A stretch of 64,000 bases of DNA, from assembly GCF_000379765.1 (NCBI RefSeq), contig NZ_KB903432.1:62427-126426 (forward strand), read 5' to 3'. How positions within the stretch are numbered: position 1 is the first letter of the stretch; the number at the start of each line of letters is the position of its first letter. Below the pieces are notes generated by a model. It had not been told where the DNA came from, searched no databases, and saw nothing but the letters and a program-made list of their open reading frames with translations. Positions 30,165 to 58,820 of the stretch are shown here, piece after piece. The translations under genes and the position numbers were made by a program. Source of the stretch: Flexithrix dorotheae DSM 6795 (GTDB lineage: Bacteria; Bacteroidota; Bacteroidia; Cytophagales; Flammeovirgaceae).

Positions 30165-32648
30165 ATGAAAAACTACCTCTATTTATCAGCTACTATCATT
30201 TTTTTAATTCTCATCAGGGCTAATTCTGCCTTTAGTTTCCAGGAGGTTCAGCAGGATACTACCAAGGTAATCGAGGAAAATAAAAATGTAATACCTGGTT
30301 CTGCCATCACGCTTGAAGCTGCCGAAACCAGTAATTTTATCAGGAAAAGTGCTGAAAACATTAAGCAAAATAATCAGATTCCTGTTTTTGTTGTTTTGGT
30401 GGATTCTTTAAAGAGGGTGAAAAAGGAGGCACTTGATCTGGAAGCTGCTGATTCTGTTTCCAATCTATCGATAAGGGAGTTGGACAGTAAGCAAAAATCA
30501 TGGACTCTTATTGGTAGAAAAGCCACAGATGTTCAGAAAATGATTTCTTCCTATATCCAGAAACTTGAAAAGGAAAAAGAAGAATTAACTAAAGTCAAAA
30601 ACCGATGGGTGGAAACCAGGAATGCCTATGGTGAAAAAGAATTATCGGAGGCCCTTGCAGCACGGCTGGATACCACCCTTTTGGAAATTGATACCCTTGA
30701 GCAATTTGAGAACCTTAAACTGGATTCCACATTCAAATTATTGGACGAATTATCCCAGATTTCTATTGAAGTTGATAATAGAATAAACCTTTACAGGGAT
30801 GCGCTAATCGGGAACCAGGGAAAACTATTCCAAATTCAGGATGTGGGTTTTATTGAAAAATTTAGAGAACCTGAAGATTCAATTTCTTTCAGGCTTCAAA
30901 TGAAATACTATTTTAAAGATTCCAAAGCTGAATTTGAAAAGTATTACATCGTTGAAAAACAACTTTTTGAAATTCATCTTATCATTACCCTGATTTTGTT
31001 GGCTATTACCTTAACTGCCTTATTTGTACAACGAAAAAGAGCGGAAGAACCGAAAGAAAATTATTTAAGATTATTCCAGAAAATTGTAAGACGACCATTT
31101 TCTACTACAATTATCTTAAGCATTTTTGTAGCAATATTTCTATATCCCTCCCCCCCTGATTTATTGCTAAAGGCGATTGCTTTTTTATCGGTAATACCTT
31201 TGGTTGTCATTCTCCTCAAACTATTTCCAAAGAGATATTATCCCTATATTTTAACATTAGCAGGATTATACTGCCTGTTAATAATTGATGACATGACGAT
31301 TCCCGGAACCCGTGATTCAAGGATTTTATTATTTGTGATGAATGTAATTGAATTTGTGGCTCTGTCATTTTTTATTTTTAGGAAGGAAGGACAAAATGAA
31401 AAAGGAGCATATCGATTTTATATCATATTCTCAGTATATCTGCATTTCCTTTTTTCAATTGTTGGATTAATGGCCAATTACCTTGGCGCCACTCAGCTCG
31501 CCAAACTAATTACTTTTTCAATGGTGAGAATTGCCTACAACGGTTTGGCATTTTATGCAGGTGCAATTGTGGTGAGTTCGATATTCACCATTTTATTTAG
31601 AGGAGGATGGATTAAAGTTTTTAACTCCATAAAAAACAATAATGACATCATCGTTCGCAAACTGGCAAGTGTTACTAAATTGTTCTTCTTCATTTTATGG
31701 ATGCGGTCTGTGCTTAGAATTTACGGAGTGGAGACCATTTTTGTAGAAGGTTTTTTAGAGTTTTTCTATACTTCCTATGAATTTGGAACTGCAAGTATTT
31801 CTGTGGCCAATGTTTTTTCCTTTGTTTTTACCATTTGGCTTTCGGTTTTCATAACCAGAATCATCAGGGCGATTCTGGAAGATGAAATTTTAGACAGGCT
31901 CACCCTTCCGATTGGAGTACCCAACACCGTTTCTATGATGGTGCGTTATTCCCTGATTACGTTAGGGTTTTTTCTGGCAGTAGCCGCAGCAGGGATTGAA
32001 TTAACCAGTTTGAGCATCATTTTCGGAGCTTTTAGTGTGGGTATTGGCTTTGGGCTTCAGAATATATTTAATAACCTGGTTTCGGGTATTATTCTGGCAT
32101 TTGAGCGTCCTATCAAACTTGGGGACACGGTAGAAGTCGGCAACCTGATAGGAACAGTAAAAAGTATGGGTATGCGATCGAGCAATGTTCGAACTTTTGA
32201 AGGAGCGGAAGTCATTGTACCCAATGGTCAATTGATCTCAAAAGAAGTGGTCAACTGGACCCTTTCCGATCAACACAGGAGGATTGAAATTATGGTAAGA
32301 GTCTCTCATGATTCCGATCCACATGAGGTTTATGAAATTCTCCTTAAAATAATTTCCAACCATCAGTTTGTATTGCTAAACCCTAATCCAGGGGTTTATT
32401 TCCAGGAAATCACTGAAGATGCGCTGCATTTCCGTCTGCTTTTCTGGACCAGTAATTTTGGAGAGTGGATAAGAATAAGAAGTGATATTTATTTTTCCAT
32501 TTTCGATGAATTAAAAACCAGAGGAGTAAAAGTTCACTTTCCACAAAGAGAACTTTCCATCCGAACAGTGGAAACGAATGGAGTTCAGAAAATTCAAAAG
32601 CCCATGGAGGAAAAAACGGAAAAACAAAAAGAGGAAGAAAATGAATAA
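30165..32648 (+). CDS. Large mechanosensitive channel (MscS family, multi-span)
   Basis: The protein has 827 residues. A signal peptide (about 1-26) is followed by a periplasmic coiled-coil region to ~260 and then roughly ten membrane spans. The MscS core starts with the pore-lining helix SLSIIFGAFSVGIGFGLQNIFNNLVSG (about 615-640) and continues with the beta domain ERPIKLGDTVEVGNLIGTV and VPNGQLISKEVVNW. Length and layout recall the multi-span MscM/MscK-like channels that release solutes on hypo-osmotic shock. The charged tail ends in a Lys/Glu-rich stretch. It is the last gene of the 28556-32648 run. Confidence 0.92.
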   Translation: MKNYLYLSATIIFLILIRANSAFSFQEVQQDTTKVIEENKNVIPGSAITLEAAETSNFIRKSAENIKQNNQIPVFVVLVDSLKRVKKEALDLEAADSVSNLSIRELDSKQKSWTLIGRKATDVQKMISSYIQKLEKEKEELTKVKNRWVETRNAYGEKELSEALAARLDTTLLEIDTLEQFENLKLDSTFKLLDELSQISIEVDNRINLYRDALIGNQGKLFQIQDVGFIEKFREPEDSISFRLQMKYYFKDSKAEFEKYYIVEKQLFEIHLIITLILLAITLTALFVQRKRAEEPKENYLRLFQKIVRRPFSTTIILSIFVAIFLYPSPPDLLLKAIAFLSVIPLVVILLKLFPKRYYPYILTLAGLYCLLIIDDMTIPGTRDSRILLFVMNVIEFVALSFFIFRKEGQNEKGAYRFYIIFSVYLHFLFSIVGLMANYLGATQLAKLITFSMVRIAYNGLAFYAGAIVVSSIFTILFRGGWIKVFNSIKNNNDIIVRKLASVTKLFFFILWMRSVLRIYGVETIFVEGFLEFFYTSYEFGTASISVANVFSFVFTIWLSVFITRIIRAILEDEILDRLTLPIGVPNTVSMMVRYSLITLGFFLAVAAAGIELTSLSIIFGAFSVGIGFGLQNIFNNLVSGIILAFERPIKLGDTVEVGNLIGTVKSMGMRSSNVRTFEGAEVIVPNGQLISKEVVNWTLSDQHRRIEIMVRVSHDSDPHEVYEILLKIISNHQFVLLNPNPGVYFQEITEDALHFRLLFWTSNFGEWIRIRSDIYFSIFDELKTRGVKVHFPQRELSIRTVETNGVQKIQKPMEEKTEKQKEEENE

Positions 32649-37408: not shown

Positions 37409-38842
37409 ATGAAATTGAAAAAAATGCTTTTTATGGCAGTGCTATTTCTTTTTGGAGCTGAAATAGCCAATTGCCAGGTTGTTGAAACATCTGGAAAACA
37501 TCGGGTATTGGTATTGACGGATATTGAAAATGAGCCCGATGATGCGGAATCCCTTGTCCGGTTTTTAGTGTATAGCAATCACTTCGATGTAGAAGGGTTG
37601 GTAGCCACTACTTCCACTCATTTGAGAAATAAAATTGCCGATTGGCGTATTCATGAAATTGTGGATGCTTATGGTAAAGTAAGGGATAACCTGGAAAAGC
37701 ACGAGCAGGGTTTTCCTACTTATCAATATTTGAAAGAGCGGATAAAAAAAGGAATACCTGAATATGGGTTGGCAGGAGTAGGAGAGGGGAAGGATTCTGA
37801 AGGTTCTGACTGGCTAATTTCCGTAGTAGATAAAAATGATGAAAGGCCTGTTTGGGTAAGTATTTGGGGTGGGGCAAATGTACTTGCGCAATCCCTGTGG
37901 AAAGTGAGGCAAACCAGAACGCAGGAAGAGCTTGAGGAATTTGTTTCCAAAATCAGGGTTTATACTATTTCCGATCAGGATGATTCTGGTTTTTGGATTA
38001 GAAAGGAGTTCCCAAATCTTTTCTATATTGTAAGCCCGGGCGAGAATTACCGGCATGCTACCTGGTCGGGGATTTCCGGAGAACCTCAGTACGGATTTGC
38101 CTCCGGAGCGGATACTACCCTGGTGCAAAATCCATGGCTTAGGGAAAATATTATGGAGAACCACGGCCCACTTGGAGCGGAATATCCTGAGGTAGAATAT
38201 GCCATGGAAGGGGATACGCCTAGTTTTTTCTCCTTAATTAATAATGGTTTGAATGTAGCCGAAAAACCTAATTTTGGCGGTTGGGGAGGCAGATATGAAT
38301 TGTATCAGCCACGATTTTTGGCTTACAGACAACTGGAAGATAAAGAACAGGAACCACGCCCAATCTGGACGGACGCCATGGATGAAGTAGTGGGAATTGA
38401 TGGCAGGGTTTATATCGATAACCACGCCTCTATTTGGAGATGGCGGGAAGCTTATCAACATGATTTTGCCGCCAGAATCGACTGGACCATTTCCGATGTT
38501 AAGGAAGCAAATCATCCACCGGTCCCTCAAATTGAAGAAAAGGAAAGCTATAAAGTAAATACCGGATCCTCCATTTCCTTTGATGCATCCGTAAGTACTG
38601 ATCCTGATGGTGATCAATTAACTTATAATTGGATTCATTACCCGGAGCCGGGAAATTACCACAATGTAAACTGGAGACCATTAAAGTTTGAGGGAACACA
38701 AACTTCAAAGTTGAAAATGATTGTCCCCGATTATGTGAAGATTGAAACACCTCAGACAACTCACCTTATATTGGAAGTTACGGATAATGGAAATCCTTCA
38801 CTAACCAGATACAAAAGGATCATTGTAACGATAATGCCTTAA
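37409..38842 (+). CDS. DUF1593 nucleoside-hydrolase-like protein, copy 1
   Basis: The protein has 477 residues with a signal peptide (cleavage near ANCQ). The nucleoside-hydrolase-like domain (about 28-360) opens with VLVLTDIENEPDDAESLVRF, matching the Asp-rich metal site, and has VSIWGGANVLAQSL, YTISDQDDSGFWIR and EGDTPSFFSLI. Residues ~385-477 are an Ig/cadherin-like Sde182 C-terminal domain (SFDASVSTDPDGDQLTYNW, VTDNGNPSLTRYKR). The family was first seen beside cellulolytic genes. Its real substrate is unsettled. It is the first of three tandem homologues, 18 bases before copy 2, and divergent from AraC. Confidence 0.9.
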   Translation: MKLKKMLFMAVLFLFGAEIANCQVVETSGKHRVLVLTDIENEPDDAESLVRFLVYSNHFDVEGLVATTSTHLRNKIADWRIHEIVDAYGKVRDNLEKHEQGFPTYQYLKERIKKGIPEYGLAGVGEGKDSEGSDWLISVVDKNDERPVWVSIWGGANVLAQSLWKVRQTRTQEELEEFVSKIRVYTISDQDDSGFWIRKEFPNLFYIVSPGENYRHATWSGISGEPQYGFASGADTTLVQNPWLRENIMENHGPLGAEYPEVEYAMEGDTPSFFSLINNGLNVAEKPNFGGWGGRYELYQPRFLAYRQLEDKEQEPRPIWTDAMDEVVGIDGRVYIDNHASIWRWREAYQHDFAARIDWTISDVKEANHPPVPQIEEKESYKVNTGSSISFDASVSTDPDGDQLTYNWIHYPEPGNYHNVNWRPLKFEGTQTSKLKMIVPDYVKIETPQTTHLILEVTDNGNPSLTRYKRIIVTIMP

Positions 38843-38860
38843 TTTTAAATTTAAGTCCAA

Positions 38861-40306
38861 ATGAAAAAATATACTGGCCAGTTTTTATTAGTTCTACTAC
38901 TAATTTCATTGAATTTTAATCCGGAAAATTTATTTGCTCAATCCATTGAGAAAAACAGGGTAATTATTTTAACAGATATTGAAGCGGATCCTGACGATAC
39001 TCAGTCTCTAGTGCGGCTACTTTTATATGCCAATGAAATTGATATAAAAGGAATAGTAGCTACCACTTCCTGCTGGCATAAAAACAGGATAGATCCGGAA
39101 TCTATTCGAAAGGTTATTCGTGCCTATGGAAAAGTGCAGCCGAATTTATTGAAGCATGCACCTGGTTTTCCGGAAGAGGAAACTTTATTAGGATTAGTAA
39201 AGGACGGCCTGCCGGAATACGGGATGCTAGGTGTAGGAGATGGAAAAGATTCAGAAGGTTCCGACTGGATTTTAAAAGAACTGGAAGAACAGGATGATCG
39301 TCCACTTTGGATTTCAGTTTGGGGAGGCGTAAATACATTGGCACAAACACTGGATAAAATTAAGAAAACAAAATCAAAGGCAGAGGCCAAAAAATTGATG
39401 GCAAAACTCCGGGTTTATACCATTTCTGATCAGGATGATAGTGGAATTTGGATTAGAAATAATTTTCCTGATTTATTTTATATCGTAAGTCCCGGAGATG
39501 ATTATGGAAGTGCCACCTGGAATGGCATAAATAGTTATGTGAAGGGCATAGATAATGAATCAATCAGCAATGAGTGGATCGCCCAGCATATTCAACAAGA
39601 CCATGGTCCATTGGGAGCGGTTTATCCCGATGTGGCCTGGGGGGTAGAAGGAGATACTCCGGCTTTTTTATCTTTGATACCCAATGGGCTGAATGCATCG
39701 GAACACCCTGAATGGGGAGGTTGGGGTGGCCGCTACGAACACTATAAACCAGATTTTTCGAAACAAAAAAAAGGAAGATCAGGGGTGCCGTTTGAGTCTG
39801 AAACTAGGGCCATCTGGACTAATGCAGTTGATCATTATACCCCTTATGTTCCGAAATCCTATGGACGGACAGTTGGAAAAGATACGGTTAGCTTCGAAAA
39901 TAACAAAGTATCATTATGGCGATGGAGAGATGATTTTCAAAATGATTTTGCCGCCCGAATGGACTGGTGTACAAAAGCTTATGAAGAGGCCAATCATCCA
40001 CCAGTTCCGGTTTTAATGCATCCTGAGGAAATTACTGTAAAATCAGGAGAAGGTTTTGATTTGGATGCTTTTGATTCTACTGATCCGGACGGAGATAATT
40101 TGAGTTTTTTGTGGTTTAGTTATCCGGAAGCCGGTTCTTATCCAAAAAGAATCGAAATTTCAGCTGAAAATGTACATGGTGTTTATGTAACGGCCCCGGA
40201 GGTTAAGCAAAAAGAAACGATCCATTTTATTCTAAAAGTTTCGGATAAAGGAACCCCCGTTTTGTCAAGATATAAGCGGGTGATTGTAAATGTAATGCCT
40301 AAATAA
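38861..40306 (+). CDS. DUF1593 nucleoside-hydrolase-like protein, copy 2
   Basis: The protein has 481 residues with a signal peptide (cleavage near LFAQ). It is a clear paralogue of copy 1, with the same domain order: VIILTDIEADPDDTQSLVRLL, ISVWGGVNTLAQTL, YTISDQDDSGIWIR, EGDTPAFLSLI, then a C-terminal DAFDSTDPDGDNLSFLW and VSDKGTPVLSRYKR. It keeps all the metal-site acidic residues of copy 1. It follows by 18 bases and precedes copy 3 by 11, so all three are one transcription unit. Secreted or periplasmic hydrolysis of a glycosidic or nucleoside-like compound is inferred. Confidence 0.9.
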   Translation: MKKYTGQFLLVLLLISLNFNPENLFAQSIEKNRVIILTDIEADPDDTQSLVRLLLYANEIDIKGIVATTSCWHKNRIDPESIRKVIRAYGKVQPNLLKHAPGFPEEETLLGLVKDGLPEYGMLGVGDGKDSEGSDWILKELEEQDDRPLWISVWGGVNTLAQTLDKIKKTKSKAEAKKLMAKLRVYTISDQDDSGIWIRNNFPDLFYIVSPGDDYGSATWNGINSYVKGIDNESISNEWIAQHIQQDHGPLGAVYPDVAWGVEGDTPAFLSLIPNGLNASEHPEWGGWGGRYEHYKPDFSKQKKGRSGVPFESETRAIWTNAVDHYTPYVPKSYGRTVGKDTVSFENNKVSLWRWRDDFQNDFAARMDWCTKAYEEANHPPVPVLMHPEEITVKSGEGFDLDAFDSTDPDGDNLSFLWFSYPEAGSYPKRIEISAENVHGVYVTAPEVKQKETIHFILKVSDKGTPVLSRYKRVIVNVMPK

Positions 40307-40317
40307 AATCAATACCA

Positions 40318-41331
40318 ATGATTAAAAAGATATTCATTTTTACGCTGATTTTCCTGGTTTCCATAATTTGTAATGCCCAAAAGCCAAGTGTATTCATCCT
40401 CACTGATATTAATCTGGTGGGTGGTGATCCTGATGACAGGCAATCTTTGATTCATGTTTTGTGGTATGCTAATGAATTGAATATAAGGGGAGTTGTTCCC
40501 GATTACTGGAATGGGAAAAGTCAGGAAGCCTGCCAGGAAACTATAGAAATTTATGCAAAGGATTTTGTGAGCTATGGTTTTAAGAAAAAGGGTTATCCTG
40601 AACCGGAGCAGGTAGAAAAATTAATCGCGAAGGATGAAAATGATGCCATTGAAAGACTGAAAAATGAAGCTGAAAATTCGGAATCGCCATTGTATGTATT
40701 GGTTTGGGGACAAATGATTACCCTAAAAAAAGCACTTTTCACTTATCCCGAAATCTCCTCAAAAATCAGGGTACTATCAATTGGCACAGGCTTAAAATAC
40801 GGACCAAAAGACGAAGTTCCCGGAAAAGATTGTACAGTTTCGAATTGGAATGGAAAGGGTAGAGATGAGATTTATAAGGATCCAAGATTTCAACAAATGT
40901 GGTGGCTGGAAAGTAACTGGACCTATAATGGCATGTTTATGGGCGAAGAACCGGAACAAATGTTTGAACAACTTCAGGCTTATGGGAAAATGGGTAAGCA
41001 TATTAAAACTGTGACAAAAAATCATTCCTGGGCACATTATTTCCGTGTGGGTGACACCCCTACGGTGTTATATTTAATCGACCCAAATCACAATCCCGAT
41101 CTTCCGGAAGAAAGTAGCTGGGCCGGCAAATTTAAAAAGCCATTTCCCCATTCCCGGCCCAATTATTTTACCGATGATAATGGGGAAATAGAATGGGATT
41201 ATGCAGATCCCTGCAAAACCTGGGGAAACCTGAAGGAAATGTATGCTTACAATAAAAGTACTTTACATTCCAGAAGAGCCGAAATGTATGAAAGTCTGTT
41301 GGAAAAATTGAATTCGCTTTATGGGAAATAA
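40318..41331 (+). CDS. DUF1593-like protein, copy 3, single domain
   Basis: The protein has 337 residues with a signal peptide (cleavage near CNAQ). The N-terminal hydrolase-like domain is kept (VFILTDINLVGGDPDDRQSLIHVLWYAN, VLVWGQMITLKKALF, VGDTPTVLYLI). A Gly-Gly insertion precedes the PDD, the SDQDDSG motif is replaced (RVLSIGTGLKYG), and the Sde182 C-terminal domain is absent. It is therefore a divergent, shorter member, perhaps with another substrate. It ends 26 bases from the convergent mscS gene. The hairpin CTAAGG...CCTTAG (41345-41374) overlaps that gene's 3' end. Confidence 0.85.
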   Translation: MIKKIFIFTLIFLVSIICNAQKPSVFILTDINLVGGDPDDRQSLIHVLWYANELNIRGVVPDYWNGKSQEACQETIEIYAKDFVSYGFKKKGYPEPEQVEKLIAKDENDAIERLKNEAENSESPLYVLVWGQMITLKKALFTYPEISSKIRVLSIGTGLKYGPKDEVPGKDCTVSNWNGKGRDEIYKDPRFQQMWWLESNWTYNGMFMGEEPEQMFEQLQAYGKMGKHIKTVTKNHSWAHYFRVGDTPTVLYLIDPNHNPDLPEESSWAGKFKKPFPHSRPNYFTDDNGEIEWDYADPCKTWGNLKEMYAYNKSTLHSRRAEMYESLLEKLNSLYGK

Positions 41332-41357: not shown

Positions 41358-42356
41358 TTAATTCACCTCCTTAGGATCAATAATTCCCTGGCTGATTAAT
41401 TCCCGCATCACAATTTCGGTCATGTCACTTTTGAAGGCAAATTCGTAGCGAATATCCATCACATAGGCTTTCAGCCTCATTTTCAGGTACGATCTTCTTT
41501 CTTTTACTTCATTAAAAAAAAGAACCGCTATAGGCTTATCCAGAAAAATAAACCGGGAAACTTTGGCGGCCTCGGTAGCTATACTTCTTACTTTTTCGGT
41601 ATCTACCGTAATGGGGAGATAGAGTTCGGCCACCACCTGGCAGTTGGATTCTCCCGCATTGGAGTTGGAAAGGGACTGATTCATTAGTTCCCCGTTGGGA
41701 ATACTGACAATAGAATCATCAGCAGTTACGATTCTGGTGGATCGCAGTCCTATTCCAATTACTTCTCCGTAATAACTTCCTACTTCAATTTTATCCCCTA
41801 CCAAAAATGGCCGGTCAATGAGAATAACAACTCCACCAAAGATATTTTTTAGAATATCCTGTGAGGCAAAACCCACAGCTACTCCAATGGAAGCTGAAAA
41901 AGCAATTAATGTGGCGAGTGGAGGCTGAAATATGCCTTCTACTATTATAATTGTGAAAATTATCCAGGAGACCAACCTGACGATAGGAATAGTACTTTTT
42001 ATCGTAACCCTGTGTAAGGCGCTTCTCTCTGCCCAGGCCTCCAGTGCCTTCCGGATCATTCTAATGACAAAGAAAGTAATTAGAAGGAAAACAATTGTCC
42101 AAAATATCTTATTGAAGGAAAAAATGTTTTCAATTTTGGGTGGCTCCAGAATTTTTTCCCGCAGCTTTTCCTTATCCGCCCTGCTTTCATTGGCCTCCCT
42201 TTGTAAAGTATCGAGCTTAGAAATAATTACGGAAAGGCTGTCGTTTTTACTGATTTTTTCCTGAACAGAATCTGCAGGATTTTGGGAAAAAACCTGGTAG
42301 ACCAGCCCAAAGGAAAGCAGTAAAAAACAATATATCTTTAAATTTTTCTTCAACAT
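41358..42356 (-). CDS. Small mechanosensitive channel (MscS family)
   Basis: The protein has 332 residues. It has a signal peptide (about 1-24), a coiled-coil stretch to ~75, two or three membrane spans, then the MscS pore helix and beta domain. The latter reads LIAFSASIGVAVGFASQDILKNIFGG, then IDRPFLVGDKIEVGSYYGEV and SIPNGELMNQSLSN, ending in the alpha/beta C-domain. It is the second gene of a two-gene leftward operon, only 12 bases after the 1013-residue P-loop protein gene. An ATPase so close to an MscS gene suggests joint action. It is convergent with the DUF1593 cluster. Confidence 0.93.
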   Translation of the reverse strand: MLKKNLKIYCFLLLSFGLVYQVFSQNPADSVQEKISKNDSLSVIISKLDTLQREANESRADKEKLREKILEPPKIENIFSFNKIFWTIVFLLITFFVIRMIRKALEAWAERSALHRVTIKSTIPIVRLVSWIIFTIIIVEGIFQPPLATLIAFSASIGVAVGFASQDILKNIFGGVVILIDRPFLVGDKIEVGSYYGEVIGIGLRSTRIVTADDSIVSIPNGELMNQSLSNSNAGESNCQVVAELYLPITVDTEKVRSIATEAAKVSRFIFLDKPIAVLFFNEVKERRSYLKMRLKAYVMDIRYEFAFKSDMTEIVMRELISQGIIDPKEVN

Positions 42357-42368
42357 TTTAATCTCCGC

Positions 42369-45300
42369 TTAATAAATAAGGTTTTTGGCTTTTAGCAAGA
42401 TAACTATCTGGCTGTATAGCAGTGGATTGATAAAATAATGGTCATTTTTATAAATAATCAAACCATCATCAAAAAGCAGGGTGAATTCCTGCCGCACAGT
42501 TTCCTTCCCCTGATTAAGTATTCGCGCATAGTTCTCCTGTGTAAGCCCATCGTGAATCAATAATGCATGCAACAAAAATATTTTCTTGGTGGAAAGGGCA
42601 TTCAAAAAGCTAAAATCAAGATTCCTTAAAGTAGAAATATTAATGGTATCTTCCAGGATTTCCTCTGTTGATCTCATCCAGAAAATTAGGGCCAGGCTGA
42701 TATTACTTCCTGTAAACTTATTCAGGAATGAAAAATAATCTTCCTTTAAATAAGCCTGACTTTCTTCCTGATCCATTTTGGCTAATTTCTTTCCGGAAAT
42801 AACTAATGGATCTGGTTTATAAAAGATATTATACCCACTCATTTTATGTCTTTTCAGAATGATGTCCGCAATTTTTTGTGAAGTCAGTTCTTTGAGCCTG
42901 ATGGTATAACCGAAATAATCACTGATGTCTAAAGCTTTATCCAGATAATTCCAGGCGTAAACCGTACAGGTACAAATCCAAAAATGCTTTTTGTTGGTTT
43001 TTGACATCAATTCCACAAAATATTTTATCCCGATAAAACCTCCTACCATCCTTAAGAACAGATTTTGAATGTCTTCCATCCGAATGATCATTTTTTCATT
43101 ATAATCATTCAGGTAAGCAATTAAATCTTCCAGGTTTGTGAAATTTCCATCGGGAAAAGCCTCCTGAAAAAACTGAAGAAATTCCTCTTTGTTGGTTATT
43201 TGTCTGGAAACTGTTAATGCTTTTACCGAAAATTTTTCATTGTATTTTTTTAAAAATGAATTGACAACAGTAGTGTTCCCGCTTCCTTTTTCACCGATGA
43301 CTACACTGGGCACGTATCTGTACAGCTGCCAATTGTCAAAAGCCAGTTTTAGCGCTGCAGTTTCTTCTTCTCGGGTATCTACCAGAATACTATCGGTAAT
43401 GGAGTCACTTTTAAAAAGACGTTGGTAAACGTATGGAAGTCTGGCAGTAGCCTCTTCCGTAGCCGCAAGGTAATCGGATATTTCGGTACTGATTTTAGAG
43501 GCTCCTTTTGACAGCCCGATTAATTCCTTAAACCATTCATACCGTTCGCTCAAATATTCCAGCCCTTCCCGGGAAGATTTGATAATTTGTGGAATCAGGT
43601 TTTTGATGTAAGCAATAGTCTCTTTCCTGACCGCTTTAGCTTTGTTGATCGCTTTGGCTTTGGTAATGACTATTTTGAGCTTGAAAATATTCTCTGTATT
43701 GGTAAAGGAAATGATTTTGTTCACAAAACCCAGAAGCCCTTCGCCTAATTCCTGAGCAAAAATTTCTTCAGATTGAATAAGGTCCTCTTTAATATCTTCC
43801 GTTCTTGCCAATGCCCTTTTCAATCCATCTTCGGCAATTTCTTTTCCTTTTGCCAGCTGGTAATCGGGAGTGGTAGAATTTTCAATGGCAGTGGCCAGGT
43901 TGTAGTCGGCTATGCTATCCAGTTCTCCAATTTCCTGTATCAGTTTATTTACCGTCTGTAATAATCTTGCCTTTACTTTTTTACTGACTTTAAGTAAGGA
44001 AGGCAAACTTTCAAAGTTGATTAATTCGTGCGGAGAAATCTTGGAAAATTCTTTATCAGAGATACTTTTGTCATATTTTGCCAGACTTGTAAGGGTACGA
44101 TTTTTTTTCATGCCCTGCACCTGGTTTTCAATCTCCAATTCAATCTGCCCTACCATTTTGGGAAAATCCTGCTCCAGTAAAGCCCGGGTAGCAGCAGGAA
44201 GGTTTTTATTGGTCAGTTCCTGCTCAATAAGCGATTTTTCCTGAGTTAATAATTGGTTAAAAGTTTTGACTCCTTTGCCTTTAAAATTTTGGACTTTTGC
44301 AATTAAATCATTGAAAAAGGTTTCAATTTGCTCTAATTGAGGAATTACATTGTCATTTACTTTTTTATTATAGATACCCTTTTGTTCATAATAAGTATCT
44401 ACCACATTAAACACAAGATGATAAAGGTCCAGGTCTAGCCGCCAGTCTTCATAAAGAGTAAAAAGAGTATTATTCCATCCTTCCAGTTCACTATTGTATT
44501 CTTTTTTTAGTGAGTTTTTCAGCCTGTTAATGGCCCTGTCTGAAAATTTCCGTTTTGATAATTCAAGGGTACCAACCCGATCAATTGCCGAAAAATATTT
44601 TTGTTCTATTTTCTCAAAAGCACTACTCAGGTATTTGGGAAGATCTTTTTTCTGATCTTCTAATTTCCCGGATAGTAGGTTAAATTTTTCGGCCAAAGCA
44701 TTTAAATCAACAGGATCCCATTCATCAAAATTATTGGCGATGGAGAGGTCGATAAAACTTTTGTTTAGACCTGACAAACTCTCCCAAACAGACAAATTGG
44801 TACTGTTAATACTCAAATAAATATCCTTGATGAGTACCTTAAGCTCAGTCATCATTGCACCATAGAAATAATAATATGCGATATTTCTCATCGGAACCTG
44901 ATGTCGCCAGCGTTTGGGAGGTTTTGTTTTTCTTTTAAATAGTTTCCGAAAGCTATTCGAAACTTTTCCAGGGAATTTAGAGAAATAATACCTGGTTTTT
45001 TTTATCCTTTTTGCCCCTTTAAGGAGAAAGGAATCTTCTTTTTGAGGATAAAATCTTTCCTTTCCCTGTAAAAGGGTAATATCTTTTATAATATACGAAT
45101 TGGTATATCCTTCGAACTGATTGATGAATTCCTTAAAATTTTCATCAAAATCATTTTTTTCCAATTGACCATAACAGCCATCAATATGGGCTGAAAAATC
45201 ATCCTGAAGCTGAATGAGTTCATTCACTATTTCAATCAGCGCTTTTTCTTTAATGTGCCTGGAAATATTCCTTTCACGATTTTGGAAAATTTGGCAACAC

Positions 45301-45410
45301 TTTTTGATAAAGGAGATTTGTTCATCAAGTCGCTGTTCAAAAACAGGAATGAAGTACGAATTCAGTAATTGGAAGGAATTCTCGCTTATTTTTCGAATGC
45401 TTTCACCCAT
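42369..45410 (-). CDS. Large P-loop ATPase with coiled coils and C-terminal HTH
   Basis: The protein has 1013 residues. About 1-690 are long helices, many coiled-coil, with a basic patch (FRKLFKRKTKPPKRWRHQ) at ~155-172 and no membrane span except possibly weak ones. A P-loop region starts near residue 700: SVVIGEKGSGNTTVVNSFLKKY. The invariant Lys of GxxGxGK[ST] is Asn here (codon AAC, checked). A Walker-B-like MIIRMEDIQNLF lies ~70 residues later. The C-terminal ~150 residues form a winged-helix-like region. The overall plan (long helical sensor, P-loop core, wHTH) resembles STAND/AAA regulators. It is followed 12 bases later by an mscS gene. Confidence 0.75.
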   Translation of the reverse strand: MGESIRKISENSFQLLNSYFIPVFEQRLDEQISFIKKCCQIFQNRERNISRHIKEKALIEIVNELIQLQDDFSAHIDGCYGQLEKNDFDENFKEFINQFEGYTNSYIIKDITLLQGKERFYPQKEDSFLLKGAKRIKKTRYYFSKFPGKVSNSFRKLFKRKTKPPKRWRHQVPMRNIAYYYFYGAMMTELKVLIKDIYLSINSTNLSVWESLSGLNKSFIDLSIANNFDEWDPVDLNALAEKFNLLSGKLEDQKKDLPKYLSSAFEKIEQKYFSAIDRVGTLELSKRKFSDRAINRLKNSLKKEYNSELEGWNNTLFTLYEDWRLDLDLYHLVFNVVDTYYEQKGIYNKKVNDNVIPQLEQIETFFNDLIAKVQNFKGKGVKTFNQLLTQEKSLIEQELTNKNLPAATRALLEQDFPKMVGQIELEIENQVQGMKKNRTLTSLAKYDKSISDKEFSKISPHELINFESLPSLLKVSKKVKARLLQTVNKLIQEIGELDSIADYNLATAIENSTTPDYQLAKGKEIAEDGLKRALARTEDIKEDLIQSEEIFAQELGEGLLGFVNKIISFTNTENIFKLKIVITKAKAINKAKAVRKETIAYIKNLIPQIIKSSREGLEYLSERYEWFKELIGLSKGASKISTEISDYLAATEEATARLPYVYQRLFKSDSITDSILVDTREEETAALKLAFDNWQLYRYVPSVVIGEKGSGNTTVVNSFLKKYNEKFSVKALTVSRQITNKEEFLQFFQEAFPDGNFTNLEDLIAYLNDYNEKMIIRMEDIQNLFLRMVGGFIGIKYFVELMSKTNKKHFWICTCTVYAWNYLDKALDISDYFGYTIRLKELTSQKIADIILKRHKMSGYNIFYKPDPLVISGKKLAKMDQEESQAYLKEDYFSFLNKFTGSNISLALIFWMRSTEEILEDTINISTLRNLDFSFLNALSTKKIFLLHALLIHDGLTQENYARILNQGKETVRQEFTLLFDDGLIIYKNDHYFINPLLYSQIVILLKAKNLIY

Positions 45411-45950: not shown

Positions 45951-47234
45951 TTAAATTTTTCCTGTAACACGGTTGTATTCTGCCAATGAGGAAAAGTAAT
46001 GCCATCTAGACTCTAAAACTGAATTATATGCCTGCAGCCAGTTAAATTGAGCATCTAATAATTCAATAATGGGCGTAAGACCTTCCTGATATCTGTCTCT
46101 GATTAATTCATAATTTTCATTTGCTTTTTCTAAAGAAGACTCAGTTAAATTAATTCCTGCTATGGATTCCTCAAGTTGGAAAAAGGCTGAAGAAACTTCA
46201 AGAGAAATTTGATCTTGCAAATCTTCCATTTCCAAAAGGGAGGACTCATAATTGATTTGCTGCATACCCACGTCATGTCGTTTTTTACCCCATTCCACTA
46301 AAGGCACGGAAATAGTCACATAGGCAGCAGCGTTAAATATGGGGTCAGGATCAAGTAAATCGGTATTTGGCGCACCCCAAATAGGCCTGAAGTTCAATAA
46401 TATTTGCGGTGTATAGGTAGATTTTGCCAGCTTTATATTGTTGCTGTAAATATTACTCATATCCTTTTGGATGGATACTTCCGGACGTTCCGCCAACACA
46501 TTATCAATACCTTCTATTGTGGGTAATGAAAAATCTCCATAAATCTGATCGCTTTCTACAGTGATATCCTGGTTAATTTCATTTCCAACAATTCTATTTA
46601 ATTCCATCAGGCTAATTTCATGCATAGTCCTGCTTTTATGAATTAGCAGCATGGCTTCATTTTGCTTTACTTCTGTCATAAGCAGATCATTTCTGGAAAC
46701 CAGCCCGGTTTCAACCTTATCCCCAACTACTTTTACAAGTTCATCCAATAGTGTTTTATACTGAGTGGCAATATTGAAAGCTTCCTTTGACCACACAGAT
46801 TTCCAGAATTTCAATTCTGTTTGGTAAAGTAATTCATCCGTAGTCAGAGCTAAATTACTTCCAGCTATGTTTTTTTCCTGTTTGGCATTCTCAGTATTTA
46901 ACTGAACCCTACCTCCAGAGTAAATATTCTGAGATATTTTCACTCCTACATCATAAATATGAGAAGTACCACTAAAGCTTTGTCCATCCAGGTTAATAGT
47001 CATTGGGTCGGCCAGGTACTTATATCCGGCATCAGCAGAAATGGAAGGATATAAGTCACTGGTTTTGGATTTAACATTTTCCTCTGACCTTTTAAGTTGG
47101 TTGTCAGCTATTTTAATTTTAGCATTATTTTCAACGGCAAGTTTTCTGCATACATCCAGTGTAAGGGTTTCTTGTCCATTTACTTCTATGCCAATAATGA
47201 AAATTAAGGTCGTAAGAACGATTTGAAATTTCAT
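45951..47234 (-). CDS. TolC-family outer-membrane efflux protein
   Basis: The protein has 427 residues with a signal peptide (cleavage near VNGQ, about residue 20) and no lipobox. It has long amphipathic helices with the family repeats (LTLDVCRKLAVENNAKIKIADNQ, LYPSISADAGYKY, ISQNIYSGGRVQLNTENAKQ, RYQEGLTPIIELLDAQ). It forms the outer-membrane channel of a tripartite pump. It is third in the leftward adaptor-RND-TolC operon (33 bases after the RND gene). The 126-bp palindrome lies downstream. Confidence 0.93.
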   Translation of the reverse strand: MKFQIVLTTLIFIIGIEVNGQETLTLDVCRKLAVENNAKIKIADNQLKRSEENVKSKTSDLYPSISADAGYKYLADPMTINLDGQSFSGTSHIYDVGVKISQNIYSGGRVQLNTENAKQEKNIAGSNLALTTDELLYQTELKFWKSVWSKEAFNIATQYKTLLDELVKVVGDKVETGLVSRNDLLMTEVKQNEAMLLIHKSRTMHEISLMELNRIVGNEINQDITVESDQIYGDFSLPTIEGIDNVLAERPEVSIQKDMSNIYSNNIKLAKSTYTPQILLNFRPIWGAPNTDLLDPDPIFNAAAYVTISVPLVEWGKKRHDVGMQQINYESSLLEMEDLQDQISLEVSSAFFQLEESIAGINLTESSLEKANENYELIRDRYQEGLTPIIELLDAQFNWLQAYNSVLESRWHYFSSLAEYNRVTGKI

Positions 47235-47267
47235 AATGAAACAATTATATCTTTAAATTATAAATAA

Positions 47268-50200
47268 TTATTTTTTTGGAGGTTTCACCTTATAGAATAC
47301 CACATACAATGCGGGTACCACAATGATTGTCAATAGGGTAGCTGCAAACAGACCTCCCATAATTGATGCAGCCATACCACCAAACATAGGATCAGGTAAA
47401 AGAGGCATCATTCCAAGTATTGTAGTTCCTGCAGCCATTGACACAGGCATTACACGAGATCTTGTTGCTGTTTTTATCGAATCATATTGAGAATTCCCTT
47501 CAGCCAGCTCCAGGTTAACCTGGTCTATAAGTACAATGGCATTTTTGATTACCATACCAATCAGTCCTAAAACACCCAGAATGGCAAAGAATCCAAATGG
47601 TGTTCCTGTGATGAGCAATGCCCCGGTAATTCCAATCATGATAAAGGGAACTGTCAGCATGATTAGAATTGGTTTTTTAAAACTGTTGAAAAGTACGGTA
47701 AGGATCATCAAAATAATGAATACCATGATAGGCAGTTTCTCAGCTATAGCCCCCTGGGTTCTTGCCTGCATACGGTACATTCCGTCATACATCATGGAAT
47801 AACCATCCGGAAGTTCAATTTGCTCCATCAAAGGGAAAAGCTTTGCTTCTAACTCCGGAGACTCAATCCCAGGTAATGGATCACACTGAGCGGAAAGTCC
47901 ACGTTGTCTGTCAAACCTTTTGATCACAAAATTTTTCCAGTCAAAATCCTGACGCTCAGTCACCTGATTCAGTAAAACGGCACTTCCTGAATTTGAAAAT
48001 ACCGGAATGTTGCCCATGTTGGCAAGATTGATATGGCCAAAATTTTCATCTTTCATCAAAATGGTGATGCTTTTATCTTTCTCTCGGTAATCACCTACAG
48101 GTACCCCATTAGTAATGGTTCGCATAGAAAAGGCCATACTTTCCTTGGTTACTCCCAATAACTGTCCTCTGTTTTGGGAATAAATGGGTTCCCATACAGG
48201 AATTTTTTCCCCCCAGCTATCCCGCACGTTATGCGCAAGGGGTTCTTTTCGCATAATTTCCTTAGCTTGTTTTGCCAGACCTCTTAGTACATTGGCATCT
48301 GGACCTTTAAACATCACTTCAATCTCTGCATCCGGAAGAGGCGAAACCTTAAAGTTTTGGAGCACAGGCAAAGCACCTGGTAAATTTTCTTTTATAAACT
48401 CTCCAAGTTCAGTCTGTACCAATCCGGAATCCTCTGGTTTTTTGGTTTCTACCAGAATATTGGCAAAATTAGGTAGAGGTCCGAAGCTGGTAGAGGCCAG
48501 GTAATATCTTAAAGGAGAAGCACCCAATGTGACAGAAACCTGCTTTACATCATCACGGGAAAGCAAATAATCTTCAATAATTTTAATATCAGCCTCTGTT
48601 TTATAAATAGAAGTTCCCGTTTGCAACCAATAATCCACTTTGAAATAAGGCTTATTAATAGCCGGGAAAAAGCTTCTTTTGGTCTGGTTAAATGCAGCTA
48701 AAGACAGGATAAATATCCCTACAATTATGGCTATTGTCATAAATGGTTTAGCCAGGATTGTTCCAAGGAATTTGTCAAACCAATTGTAAAATTTATTGTC
48801 ATAAGGATCTTTTCCCTGTTCCGGCTTGACTTTTAAAAGAAACTCACCATATACTGTTGTTTGGGAAAGGGCGAATATCCAACTCAGAAATAAGGATATA
48901 GCCAAAACTATAAAGAGAGGTTTGATCACTTCAGCAGCGTTTGATCCTGCAAGGTATAGTGGCAAAAAGGAAGAAATGGCTATGATAGTAGCCCCCAATA
49001 ATCCCCATTGAGGAATGGTTGCTCCATCTATGAGAGCTTTCTTTATTGGCACCCCTTTTTTCATGGCTACCATGGCATTGTCAGTAACAACAATGGCATT
49101 GTCCACCAGAATTCCCATGGCAATGATAAAGGCAGCTAATGATGTCCTGTGAAGGCTTTCATTGATAAAGATCATTACCATTAAAGTACCAAGGATGGCA
49201 AATAAAAGACTCGTACCAATCAGAATACCAGCCCTTACTCCCATAGTCAACATGAGTAGAGCCACCACTATCACAATAGAAATGATAAGATTTAGAATGA
49301 AATTAGCATTCGCTTCATCTGCAATCTGATCTTCGAAGTAAATACCTTCTATTTCAATACCTATTGGAATTTGCCCTTGTACAATGCGCAACTGCTCCTG
49401 TACCAATTTTCCAACTGCTACCACATTGGCATCAATTGGGGTAGATATACCCATCCCAATGGCAGGCTTTCCATTAAATCGCATTTTGGTGATTGGAGGA
49501 TCAAGATAACCTTTGGTGATAGTGGAAATATCTCCCAGCCGAAACTGTTTATTATTAGGTCCGTTTATGATCACGTTCCCGATATCCTCTACATTTCTAA
49601 AATCCCCTTCTGCCTTGATTTTCAATTGTAAATCCCCTGCACGAAGGTCTCCCGTATTAATGAGAACATTTTGGGATTGAAGGGCCTGGGAGATTAAATT
49701 TGGGGATATTCCCAGGTTGGACAAACGTTCCTGAGATATCATGATATTGACCACTTCCCGCTGTTCACCAAAAAGAGAAACTTTAGATACTCCTGTAATC
49801 GGCACAAGCATTTTCTTGATGAAGTTGGCATAATCCCTAAGTTCGCTATAGGTATACCCATCTTCAGCTACCACAGCGAAATAAAGGCCGAAAACATCTC
49901 CAAAATCATCATTGATATCCACACGTGAGGCTCCGGGGGGAAGTTTGGCCTCAGCCGATTTTACTTTTCTTCTTAATTCGTCCCAAAGTTGGGGCATGTC
50001 ATCATTTTTATAATATTCGTACATGTTGACGAATATTTTTGACATCCCGTAATAGGATTCAGATCTCAGGAATTCTACTCCTCTTGCACCCTGTACTTCC
50101 CGTTCAATTACCTCGGTGATTAATTCTTCCACTTCTTCCGGAGTGGCACCCGGATATTGTGTGGTGAGCACCGCAATTTTAATTACAAAAGGGGCATCTT

Positions 50201-50312
50201 CTTTTTTTCCAAGTGTATTATACCCTACAATTCCGAGTACAAAAACAAATATCATAATCATGTGGATAACATATTTGTTATCCAGTGAATACTTCGCAAT
50301 GTTCATAGCCAA
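47268..50312 (-). CDS. RND efflux permease (system 1)
   Basis: This 1014-residue inner-membrane proton-driven pump has 12 spans in two homologous halves. The porter domain opening PFVIKIAVLTTQYPGATPEEVEELI is normal for the family. TM4 reads GILVDNAIVVTDNA, with Asn in the second position of the usual Asp-Asp relay pair, as in a fair number of non-AcrB RND proteins. TM10 keeps the Lys (IGMVIKNAIVLIDQ). The substrate cannot be predicted. The ATG directly follows the adaptor's stop codon (no gap). It belongs to a three-gene operon with no regulator gene beside it. Confidence 0.94.
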   Translation of the reverse strand: MAMNIAKYSLDNKYVIHMIMIFVFVLGIVGYNTLGKKEDAPFVIKIAVLTTQYPGATPEEVEELITEVIEREVQGARGVEFLRSESYYGMSKIFVNMYEYYKNDDMPQLWDELRRKVKSAEAKLPPGASRVDINDDFGDVFGLYFAVVAEDGYTYSELRDYANFIKKMLVPITGVSKVSLFGEQREVVNIMISQERLSNLGISPNLISQALQSQNVLINTGDLRAGDLQLKIKAEGDFRNVEDIGNVIINGPNNKQFRLGDISTITKGYLDPPITKMRFNGKPAIGMGISTPIDANVVAVGKLVQEQLRIVQGQIPIGIEIEGIYFEDQIADEANANFILNLIISIVIVVALLMLTMGVRAGILIGTSLLFAILGTLMVMIFINESLHRTSLAAFIIAMGILVDNAIVVTDNAMVAMKKGVPIKKALIDGATIPQWGLLGATIIAISSFLPLYLAGSNAAEVIKPLFIVLAISLFLSWIFALSQTTVYGEFLLKVKPEQGKDPYDNKFYNWFDKFLGTILAKPFMTIAIIVGIFILSLAAFNQTKRSFFPAINKPYFKVDYWLQTGTSIYKTEADIKIIEDYLLSRDDVKQVSVTLGASPLRYYLASTSFGPLPNFANILVETKKPEDSGLVQTELGEFIKENLPGALPVLQNFKVSPLPDAEIEVMFKGPDANVLRGLAKQAKEIMRKEPLAHNVRDSWGEKIPVWEPIYSQNRGQLLGVTKESMAFSMRTITNGVPVGDYREKDKSITILMKDENFGHINLANMGNIPVFSNSGSAVLLNQVTERQDFDWKNFVIKRFDRQRGLSAQCDPLPGIESPELEAKLFPLMEQIELPDGYSMMYDGMYRMQARTQGAIAEKLPIMVFIILMILTVLFNSFKKPILIMLTVPFIMIGITGALLITGTPFGFFAILGVLGLIGMVIKNAIVLIDQVNLELAEGNSQYDSIKTATRSRVMPVSMAAGTTILGMMPLLPDPMFGGMAASIMGGLFAATLLTIIVVPALYVVFYKVKPPKK

Positions 50313-51389
50313 TTAATTTTGTATGGTTGAAAGTAATTTTACCTTTTGATTTTCGGTGAGTAAATTCCCACCGGCTGTCACCACTGTTTCTCCCTGAGAA
50401 ACTCCGGATAAAATCACAATCATATCCTGATCAGCCAAAGGTCCTAACTTAACCGACCTTTTTTGAACAACAAGCGAATCAGGTTCTACTACCCATACAT
50501 ATTTATCTTCATTTTCCCCTTCCTCAAAAACCGAAGTTAAAGGCAAAACAAAATTATTATCTCCTGAAGCCTGTTCCTGTTCGGATTTTTTTAGTACAAC
50601 CTGAACATTACAGCTCATACCAGGAGCAATTTTATACTGATTGTCATTTGAATTCTTATGCCTAAGTACAATAGTTACCGGGATACCTGCACTTCCTACC
50701 GATTTCTTTTCAACTTCTTTCATATCAGCTTCAAATTGCTTGTCTGGATAAACATCGAAGGTGACCAGGAAATAATCGTAATTCCGATAACTGGCTGCCA
50801 GCATATCCGGAACAGAAAATTTCACTTCTAAAGCAGATAAATCGAGCAGTGTAACTATGGTTTGACCAATGGAAACTCTTTCGTTATTCTCCACCAGTTT
50901 TTGATCAACAAATGCATCAAAAGGGGCAATCAAACGAGTATCAGCCATGGCATTTTGTGCGGCTTCAAAGGCTGATCTGGCTTCCAGAAATGCGGCAAGT
51001 TTTTGGTCGTATTCATTTTGCGAAACGGCATTTCGGGCTAGTAGGGTTTCAAACCGTTCTTTTTCAGATTTAGCCTGAATGTATCTTCCTTCTTTTGCGG
51101 AAAGATCGACCCGAAAATCCCGGGAATCAATTTCAGCGATTAACTGACCTTTTTTTACCCTTTGGCCCTGAACAACATTCAGTTTTACCAGTGGGCCGGA
51201 AACTCTAAAGGCCATTTCAACAGTTTGTACTTCCTGAGAAACACCCGGAAATTTTGCATCCGAAAGTTGTTCTACAGAGGTAATCGTTTGGGTTCTTACC
51301 GGTCGAATGATTTGTTCTTCCTTGGTTTCTTCTTTACACCCTGACAATAATAATAATAGTATTGAGGCAGATAGAAAAAAGTATTTCAT
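50313..51389 (-). CDS. RND periplasmic adaptor (HlyD/AcrA-like), system 1
   Basis: This 358-residue lipoprotein (LLLLSGC17 lipobox) shows the MFP layout. A beta-barrel start is followed by a lipoyl half (VVQGQRVKKGQLIAEIDSRDF), a helical hairpin (KEGRYIQAKSEKERFETLLARNAVSQNEYDQ), a second lipoyl half (DTRLIAPFDAFVDQKLVENNERVSIGQ) and a C-terminal barrel. It links the permease to TolC. It is the first gene of the operon. A ~600-base gap upstream separates it from a divergent DUF4136 gene. Confidence 0.93.
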   Translation of the reverse strand: MKYFFLSASILLLLLSGCKEETKEEQIIRPVRTQTITSVEQLSDAKFPGVSQEVQTVEMAFRVSGPLVKLNVVQGQRVKKGQLIAEIDSRDFRVDLSAKEGRYIQAKSEKERFETLLARNAVSQNEYDQKLAAFLEARSAFEAAQNAMADTRLIAPFDAFVDQKLVENNERVSIGQTIVTLLDLSALEVKFSVPDMLAASYRNYDYFLVTFDVYPDKQFEADMKEVEKKSVGSAGIPVTIVLRHKNSNDNQYKIAPGMSCNVQVVLKKSEQEQASGDNNFVLPLTSVFEEGENEDKYVWVVEPDSLVVQKRSVKLGPLADQDMIVILSGVSQGETVVTAGGNLLTENQKVKLLSTIQN

Positions 51390-55577: not shown

Positions 55578-55634
55578 TAAAAATGCTATTTTAATAAGGC
55601 TATAAAAACCTGAATATTAATCTCCGGCCATTCA

Positions 55635-58600: not shown

Positions 58601-58820
58601 CCACAGATTCCTCCACATTCACGGCATTGGCCCCGGTATAAGTAGCTCGTACCTGGACAATTGGAGGGGTTAGATTTGGGTATTGTTCAATTGGTAAACC
58701 AATTAGTGATACAAGACCGACAATGACAATTACAATGGCAATTACCATTGCAACAATAGGTCTCCTTACAAAAAAATTACCACCCATTCTTTTAGTTTGT
58801 TTCTTAGATTTTCCTTTCAA
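55635..58820 (-). CDS. AcrB-type (HAE1) RND efflux permease, system 2
   Basis: The protein has 1061 residues, the normal AcrB length. Canonical motifs are IGLPIEQYPNLTPPIVQVRATYTGA, the TM4 proton relay GIVVDDAIVVVEAV with both Asp, and TM10 GMAAKNAILIVEFANDEF. The start is ambiguous. ATG 58820 overlaps the adaptor gene by 17 bases, while Met at residue 12 (58787), beginning MGGNFFVRRPIVA, looks more like a normal AcrB start and leaves a short gap. Drug or solvent export is the family role. It is the middle gene of the adaptor-RND-OprM operon. Confidence 0.96.
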   Translation of the reverse strand: MKGKSKKQTKRMGGNFFVRRPIVAMVIAIVIVIVGLVSLIGLPIEQYPNLTPPIVQVRATYTGANAVNVEESVATPLEQQINGVDNMIYMKSTNANDGTMVIDVSFDVGTDPDMNTVLAQNRVSAATAKLPEAVKKYGVTTEKSLPNILMLVTLTSDGRYDQDFLGNYALINIKDQLARIKGVGRVQVMGASDYSMRIWIKPDLLSKMGITVPEILGVINEQNIIVPGGKFGAEPAPPGTEFTYTVRLPERFNSPEAFGEIVVRILPDGSQVKLKDIATIKLGVETYNAFTRLNEETCSIIALYQAPGSNAVELAEKVKAEMETLKEKFPESVKYDVSLDSTLPITAGIKDIVVTLIIALVLVVLVVFIFIQDWRATLIPTLAIPVSLIGAFMFFPLLGFTINVLSLLGLVLAIGIVVDDAIVVVEAVQVNIANGMKTKEATMDAMAKVTAPVIATTLVLIAVFIPVAGMAGITGLLYQQFAITIVVSVIVSSVNALTLSPALCSILLKEPETYGGPLGWFFGKFNKWMGKSTDSYMSVTNVVTRKIKRSVIFIVLLTIGAGIFGKLVPGGFIPEEDMGYFFVNVQLPNAASLQRSDVISKDIEAILMSTPEIEYVTTATGFSLLSGAMSSNNGFMFVTLKDWGDRELTAREVVQKVNMQLAMKIKGAQAFAFGPPAIPGLGNGSGFSIMIQDKGGNDPDYLAQNTMKFIQAANARPEIGTAFTTFQANVPQRFMDIDKEKALKLGVRLNDLYTTVGAFMGGAYVNDFTRFGRLYKTYIQAEPAYRVDEKQINNFFIRNINGDMVPLATIATVSPISGPDYTNRFNLFRSVEVTGAPGPGFTSAQAMTALEEVAAEVLPQDMSFSWNAMSFQEKKASGSLGIILTFSLVFVFLILSAQYESWTLPFSILLGTPFAIFGALFALWAARIFSPTFENNIFAQVSFVMLIGMAAKNAILIVEFANDEFKKGLSLFDAAIKAAKSRFRPILMTAFSFILGVFPLVVATGSGAEARKVMGMALLGGMGLATILGVFLYPMLFVLIGKLANYEKKRDKLAGGGISAP

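Follow-up and report, generated by a model that had tools for sequence, protein, structure and literature searches.

Why should a gene for a P-loop protein of 1013 residues stand directly ahead of a gene for a channel of the MscS family? The question is raised by a gene pair of Flexithrix dorotheae DSM 6795, located in a stretch of 64,000 nucleotides (contig NZ_KB903432.1, positions 62,427 to 126,426; hereafter the window). Known MscS channels are opened by membrane tension and are the textbook passive safety valves; we know of no described ATPase partner. The two genes of the window probably encode a single machine that maintains ion and osmotic balance, in which an AAA+ protein would control ion flow through an MscS-family pore. 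The word ATPase is used here as a family name and not for a demonstrated activity of the window copy, because its Walker A lysine is replaced by asparagine. Both genes lie on the minus strand, as open reading frames (ORFs) of 1013 and 332 amino acids with a 12-base gap, just as an initial annotation made from the letters of the DNA had described them. The gene for the large protein (42369–45410) comes first in the pair and starts with ATG; it was defined from the ORF call, the predicted structure and its relatives, and encodes a helical N-terminal region, an AAA+ domain, and a winged helix. The spacer of 12 nt (42357–42368, GCGGAGATTAAA) contains a ribosome-site-like run, GGAG, ahead of the start of the MscS gene. 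The MscS gene (41358–42356) also starts with ATG, and its 332-residue product has a signal-like N-terminus, three further hydrophobic segments, and a beta domain.

The pairing of the ATPase with MscS is old and widely conserved. A search of 147 related genomes with the whole large protein matched nine genomes at 11 places, ten of which have an MscS-like neighbour. At the exception (L005; relatives of the window locus are given L numbers) another gene adjoins the ATPase, and the contig ends 244 bases further on. A single-sequence scan of genome contigs with the window large protein found no relative. Profile A1, built from the C-terminal domain of the large protein and searched in 395 genomes drawn from the phylum, matched 76 of them with an E-value of 1.3e-18 or better, the genome of F. 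dorotheae included. Profile A1, which is mixed, offered no segment of sufficient conservation for scanning. A looser tally at 0.001 gave 151 of the 395, and only the matches at 1.3e-18 or better were retained; weak ones (E-values of 1e-6 to 1e-3, mostly to the first 143 profile positions) resemble other AAA proteins and were dropped. The scan of named genomes provided 52 loci, many of them from metagenome-assembled genomes (MAGs). According to the record titles, they belong to Balneolaceae (Gracilimonas, Balneola, Fodinibius/Aliifodinibius, and Rhodohalobacter) and to others including Aquimarina, Polaribacter, Splendidivirga, Bacteroidales, Marinilabiliales, KSB1, Calditrichaeota, Gemmatimonadetes, Ignavibacteria, Desulfatitalea, Bacteriovoracia, Alcanivorax, and Gallionella.

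The relative loci were located by the ATPase alone, without the use of MscS. An ATPase ORF was called at 129 loci (78 of 78 in L051–L128 and 51 of 52 in L141–L192), and at 117 of these an MscS ORF adjoins it on the same strand, 104 downstream and 13 upstream, with most of the downstream gaps between −11 and +14 nt. Rows sharing the last 250 residues of the ATPase were removed as duplicates, and a six-frame check identified MscS genes that are absent from the ORF calls of L109, L110, L115, L187, and L189. The resulting 121 distinct loci comprise the window, L005, L012–L020, and 110 from L051–L128 and L141–L192; L145 and L154 among them are overlapping protein parts in one MAG and may be a single gene. 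MscS is adjacent at 112 of the 121 loci, five are cut by a contig end (L116, L119, L123, L145, and L180), and four are without a recognised adjacent MscS (L125, L126, L183, and L005). The chance level is set by non-ATPase ORFs of L051–L128 and L141–L192, for which the next same-strand ORF matches MscS in 22 of 1012 cases, a background that is inflated because extra MscS genes lie near some of the pairs. The whole 9.5-Mb genome of the window organism contains 12 matches to PF00924.

The reverse search, with the window MscS against the same 395 genomes (E-value 1e-40, the best five candidates per genome scored), found a single match in each of 64 genomes, every one of which belongs to the 76 with a strong ATPase match. 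Judged by coordinates, the MscS is located beside the ATPase in 62 of the 64; in G376 and G466 the ATPase contig breaks off at this point, and the MscS is on another contig. A close MscS is missing from 12 of the 76 ATPase genomes, which belong to three classes (permease-fused, exchanger-type, and short divergent; L053, L100–L102, L104–L106, L112, and L124–L127). The genome search for the pair that the initial annotation had proposed thus found the two genes to be neighbours from the ATPase to MscS and from MscS to the ATPase, which is contrary to the concern that they would rarely be adjacent.

The partner channels are also set apart by descent. Of 92 MscS partners of stand-alone ATPases, 89 group together in a single clade (FastTree support 0.92), which excludes the ten other MscS proteins of the window genome; 15 partners of fused ATPases are positioned outside it. 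The window MscS differs from the partners in Aquimarina (L178) and Polaribacter (L182) at 31% of positions, but its differences from the other MscS proteins encoded in the window genome amount to 70% or more. The distance matrices of ATPase and MscS are correlated with r of 0.77 for 107 pairs, a value that none of 999 permutations reached (maximum 0.23). It is very improbable that the pair represents two osmotic-stress genes of separate function that are linked only by co-transcription. Such an arrangement would agree with the unequal rates of the two proteins (between the window and Aquimarina L178, the MscS is 69% identical and the ATPase C-terminus 35%), and the interaction is one that we infer; however, a single MscS clade is partnered across records that carry the names of several phyla, with the gene order mostly kept, and the pore signature of the partner shifts with the fusion class of the ATPase, as described below.

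The large protein was searched against Pfam, which returned AAA matches only, all below the cut-off, and against NCBIfam, which returned nothing useful; sequence searches of the PDB gave weak AAA+, winged-helix, and coiled-helix matches only. The full-length AlphaFold2 model, based on 41 aligned sequences, has a mean predicted local distance difference test (pLDDT) score of 86.3 and a predicted template modelling (pTM) score of 0.65. It can be divided into helices that extend to approximately residue 630, a P-loop AAA+ core, and a C-terminal winged helix, which is the domain plan put forward in the initial annotation. The C-terminal 388 residues, modelled separately, reached a pLDDT of 90.6 and a pTM of 0.88. 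According to secondary structure and hydropathy, the helical region comprises residues 1 to about 640 (43491–45410, minus strand, as are all parts of the pair). The ORC/Cdc6/TnsC-like AAA+ domain with its lid, delimited by structural matches, spans approximately residues 656–935 (42606–43445), and the winged-helix region, placed by the predicted structure and weak sequence matches to winged-helix regulators, approximately residues 936–1013 (42372–42605). Hydropathy predicts no membrane helix in the large protein (the highest 19-residue value is 1.4, and none exceeds 1.6).

The best structural matches are to ORC/Cdc6 and TnsC, with VIA Z-scores of about 14–16. The comparison with Orc (PDB: 7jgr_G) has a Z-score of 16.2 and a root-mean-square deviation (rmsd) of 7.4 for 276 aligned residues, and that with TnsC (PDB: 7mbw_A) a Z-score of 14.8 and an rmsd of 3.9 for 257 aligned residues; Foldseek places archaeal Orc2 at 3.6e-7. 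RFC and NSF are also among the fold matches, as is BrxC of the BREX system. The model has the AAA+ fold with lid and the C-terminal winged helix of the ORC/Cdc6/TnsC type, but the large protein differs from these proteins by its 640-residue helical region, its membrane-channel partner, and the absence of the Walker A lysine. The P-loop, helical region, and winged helix are also shared with STAND NTPases (NLR, MNS, and Avs-like proteins), and STAND proteins do occur lower in the Foldseek list (2qen, CED-4, and plant NLRs, with E-values of 4e-6 to 9e-4). The original description as STAND-type is thus only partly correct; the best folds are those of ORC/Cdc6 and TnsC, and no Pfam model of a STAND NTPase exceeds its cut-off in the window large protein. 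The nSTAND matches of relatives are all below the cut-off as well, the closest being nSTAND1 in L183 with 26.7 bits against 27.1, and those in L017, L053, L105, and L112 being lower. The large protein has no C-terminal superstructure-forming sensor repeats, its model terminating in the winged helix, and no defence context was found for it.

The Walker A motif GEKGSGNT (43272–43295, residues 706–713) carries Asn712 in place of the catalytic lysine, which gives substance to the variant P-loop at which the initial annotation had only hinted. The Walker B motif MIIRMED (43071–43091, residues 774–780) is present with E779 and D780, and an acidic residue occupies one or the other of these positions in 105 of 107 rows. 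In the wider set, 86 rows have a residue at the Walker A position, which is lysine in 57 and arginine in 16. When scored by class, the lysine is found in 64 of 74 stand-alone rows with MscS downstream, in two of 13 with MscS upstream (eight have arginine), in seven of eight SLC12-fused, and in seven of seven exchanger-fused rows. The asparagine suggests that the window protein may not hydrolyse ATP, and the window version may act as a nucleotide-bound or nucleotide-independent regulator.

The 332-residue partner matches PF00924 with 68.1 bits (cut-off 20.2, E-value 7e-19) and the C-terminal MscS domain PF21082 with 20.2 bits, just below the cut-off of 21. The closest PDB structures are MscK, MscS, MscM, and YnaI (6e-15 to 4e-13). 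The helix of the third transmembrane segment (TM3, SIGVAVGFASQDILKNIFGG), which lines the pore, and the beta domain were located at 41658–41918 by Pfam and the pore-signature alignment, and the TM3 helix is rich in glycine and alanine, as is characteristic of the MscS family. The window protein thus resembles E. coli MscS, MscK, and YnaI in its beta domain, TM3 pore signature, and PDB matches; in contrast to these channels, the window-type partners form a clade of their own, and every one of the 64 genomes with a close match carries the AAA+ gene. The TM3 consensus of 76 stand-alone downstream partners is AS.GIAVGFAsQDILkNiFGG. This signature is gone in the partners of SLC12-fused (eight) and exchanger-fused (seven) ATPases and in the three most divergent partners, which have on average 2.9, 2.6, and 3.0 alanines and glycines per 24 TM3 columns, compared with 6.3 and 8.5 in stand-alone partners and 7.7 in ten other MscS proteins. 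These sequences suggest that stand-alone systems would conduct through MscS, whereas in the fused systems ions would pass through the transporter, with the MscS relic as an adaptor. The window contains a second MscS-family gene (30165–32648, plus strand, 827 amino acids) approximately 9 kb from the pair; its best NCBIfam match is MscK, below the cut-off, and no ATPase of the large-protein family is located beside it.

The relatives of the large protein provide the connection to salt transport. Eight distinct loci encode proteins of approximately 1700 amino acids in which an N-terminal SLC12-type permease precedes a C-terminal ATPase. Such a fusion at L017, a second copy in the window genome with an MscS-like gene alongside, matches PF00324 above the cut-off (6e-45) and SLC12 below it, and in L053 both PF00324 (5e-48) and SLC12 are above the cut-off; the remaining SLC12-type fusions were assigned by our own profile or by resemblance and not by Pfam. 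In the ATPase tree, the SLC12-fused members are united on a single branch (support 0.87). The window protein, in which hydropathy identifies no transmembrane segment, does not have a transporter domain. The members of a second fusion group are approximately 1500 amino acids long and start with a Na+/H+-exchanger domain (Na_H_Exchanger in L100, Pfam 7e-19); L112 was placed in this class by hand. The exchanger-ATPase gene of L100 is followed by genes for MscS, TrkH, and TrkA, matching clusters are present in L101, L102, and L104–L106, and the order in L112 is TrkA, TrkH, ATPase, MscS. In L124–L127, an exchanger gene, identified by Pfam in L124 and grouped as a single BLAST cluster, comes after a shorter ATPase gene and a gene for a small membrane protein. 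Separate SLC12-type permease genes form one run with the stand-alone pair in L172 and L174, where the SLC12 C-terminus is below and above the cut-off, respectively. The transporter genes and domains checked by Pfam are those of L017, L053, L100, L112 (Trk), L124, L172, and L174.

Several further genes were observed at these transporter-linked loci. In the MscS position, L125 (3372–3929) and L126 (3372–3935) have a gene for a membrane protein of 185 and 187 amino acids, respectively, without a Pfam match in L125; it is perhaps a degenerate MscS partner without the beta domain. A glycosyltransferase-like gene, recognised by eye, separates the SLC12-type gene from the pair in L172 and L174, and L172 additionally contains two genes with the conserved mechanosensitive TM helices of PF05552. 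L015 has one more MscS-like gene that encodes PF05552 helices (339–1160), directly upstream of an SLC12-type permease-ATPase fusion.

The ATPase module is fused to SLC12-type and exchanger transporters and linked to TrkH/TrkA, and the ion and osmotic reading is therefore favoured over defence. Since the module recurs on SLC12-type and exchanger transporters in relatives, the AAA+/MscS pair is apparently a general salt-transport control unit. In TrkH/TrkA and KtrB/KtrA, a nucleotide-binding cytosolic ring controls the ion path. These systems serve as the working analogy to the pair, and the genes for TrkH and TrkA even occur in the operons of some relatives; TrkA, however, is a Rossmann RCK protein with a fold unrelated to AAA+. 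The fold near loaders and remodelers (ORC, TnsC, RFC, and NSF), the tight gene pair, and the single client family would also fit an AAA+ protein that acts as an assembly, quality-control, or turnover factor for MscS, SLC12-type, and exchanger transporters and takes no part in gating. We consider this rather unlikely, as the permanent C-terminal fusion to transporters and the loss of the Walker A lysine in some members are more readily explained by a standing regulatory subunit than by a cycling remodeler.

The initial annotation had left the choice between osmotic control and defence open, and a defence role of the pair is unlikely. A STAND-like abortive infection system, in which the large protein would sense a phage, open the MscS pore, and kill the cell, is suggested by the sensor-plus-pore plan, by the STAND and BrxC matches among the folds, and by the L183 nSTAND1 score just below the cut-off. 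Furthermore, a small ankyrin gene downstream of the pair in L058 matches MzaA, a model of the anti-phage system MZA, though with 93.6 bits, far below the cut-off of 800. PADLOC, however, has no match for the MscS, and its only one for the large protein is to an RtcR-like model at an E-value of 0.0065. At 1e-5, PADLOC matches none of the nine genes adjoining or near the window pair. Forty-two other ORFs of the window together match 38 PADLOC families, and one RecQ helicase ORF matches 29 families; the strong DpdF and PsyrT matches trace to this helicase (TIGR01389 above the cut-off), and weaker matches, including PDC-S13, mad3, and AriA, were not assigned to individual ORFs. The defence island that had been suggested as a neighbourhood to look for was therefore rejected for the window pair, with nine near genes free of PADLOC matches and the strong matches coming from RecQ. 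The flanks in the Balneolaceae, the family that supplies most of the loci, are housekeeping genes: uridine kinase, RecQ-family, and type III pantothenate kinase genes are above NCBIfam cut-offs, amidase-like and RsmI-like genes are below, and the uridine kinase and amidase-like clusters are each found in 37 of 78 fetched loci. Together with the lack of C-terminal sensor repeats and the transporter fusions, these results make abortive infection an improbable function of the pair. A peptidase M49-like gene follows the pair in L057, the L058 ankyrin-like gene also matches ankyrin-effector models far below their cut-offs, and the corresponding clusters (c10 and c9) are each found in 14 of the 78 fetched loci.

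The reading of the pair as a unit of ion and osmotic balance is well supported by association, and control of the MscS ring by the AAA+ protein would be its most likely mechanism. The cytosolic AAA+ protein may sense a cell-state signal through its long helical region, with ionic strength, crowding, turgor acting through the membrane, and bound nucleotide as candidates, and would then regulate the pore encoded by the second gene. In relatives, the AAA+ module is joined to a cation-chloride cotransporter of SLC12 type or to a Na+/H+ exchanger, and the MscS-like partner has lost its pore signature. The gene neighbourhood, the joint inheritance, the fusions, the predicted folds, and the pore signatures are observed; the physical contact, the control of the pore, the signal, and the direction in which ions flow are putative. 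More tentatively, the pair may represent a new class of ion-flux machines: by binding to an MscS-type ring, an ORC-like AAA+ protein would switch this ring between open and closed states, and in the course of evolution the unit would have moved onto cation-chloride cotransporters and Na+/H+ exchangers, with MscS turned into a pore-less adaptor. This is possible, though somewhat less likely than not. Balneolaceae have been described as abundant in hypersaline soils according to one study (PMC9909488), which suits an osmotic role.

Several observations weigh against joint ion and osmotic control. The link between the two proteins is deduced from genes and predicted folds, and vertical descent on a shared species tree also yields a high distance correlation without contact. 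A salt-transporter gene is fused or at most six ORFs away in only 18 of 109 distinct loci, a count that is partly circular because the transporter profiles were built from loci later counted (SLC12 from L015, L016, L017, and L020; TrkH and TrkA from their clusters; the exchangers from L100, L101, L102, L104, and L105 and from the L124–L127 cluster). No salt-transporter gene adjoins the window pair, and among the exchanger fusions the Pfam match is limited to L100, with L105, L112, and L183 negative. Three partners of stand-alone ATPases (L019, L124, and L127) are outside the MscS clade. The Walker A lysine is absent in ten of the 74 stand-alone rows with MscS downstream, the window included, and in 11 of the 13 with MscS upstream. 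A Balneola-type lineage (L067–L071, L074, L082, and L091) keeps the pair with an ATPase of only about 300–450 amino acids; it retains the AAA+ domain and MscS without the helical N-terminus, which indicates that the helical part is not always needed.

The system is real, widely conserved, and built of known parts, and it is apparently undescribed. No published description of an ATPase-MscS pair was found in open-access full texts, with part of the searches returning mainly medical papers, on mesenchymal stem cells among other subjects, and within that literature the statement that no system with this pair had been described holds. The term ATPase is absent from the searched parts of a review of cation-chloride cotransporter evolution (PMC4301019). 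If the proposed control is correct, the pair would provide the first case of a mechanosensitive-type channel in bacteria that is directly controlled by an AAA+ protein, and, through the permeases related to NKCC and KCC and their prokaryotic homologues at the N-terminus of some ATPase relatives, a bacterial parallel to animal volume regulation by SLC12 transporters. The pair suggests active control of MscS-type pores in many bacteria. It provides a testable role for an unstudied gene family, offers transporter research a set of bacterial cotransporters that contain an AAA+ domain themselves, and presents annotators of defence systems with a look-alike to exclude from their catalogues.

Rfam gave no match at the gathering threshold, and the number of promoter-like and terminator-like sites is not above that of shuffled sequences. 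The window pair is flanked by genes for Sde182-like hydrolases and for parts of efflux systems. Three tandem genes (37409–41331, plus strand) are located next to the MscS gene; Sde182 nucleoside-hydrolase-like domains are present in the second and third, and the first is of similar appearance. Two genes resembling them come after the pair in a genome of the same genus (L012). On the other side, an efflux-type cluster (45951–51389, minus strand) consists of OEP and HlyD-type membrane-fusion genes flanking an RND-like gene, recognised by eye, and a second efflux-type cluster (54174–59955, minus strand) contains an efflux outer-membrane protein.

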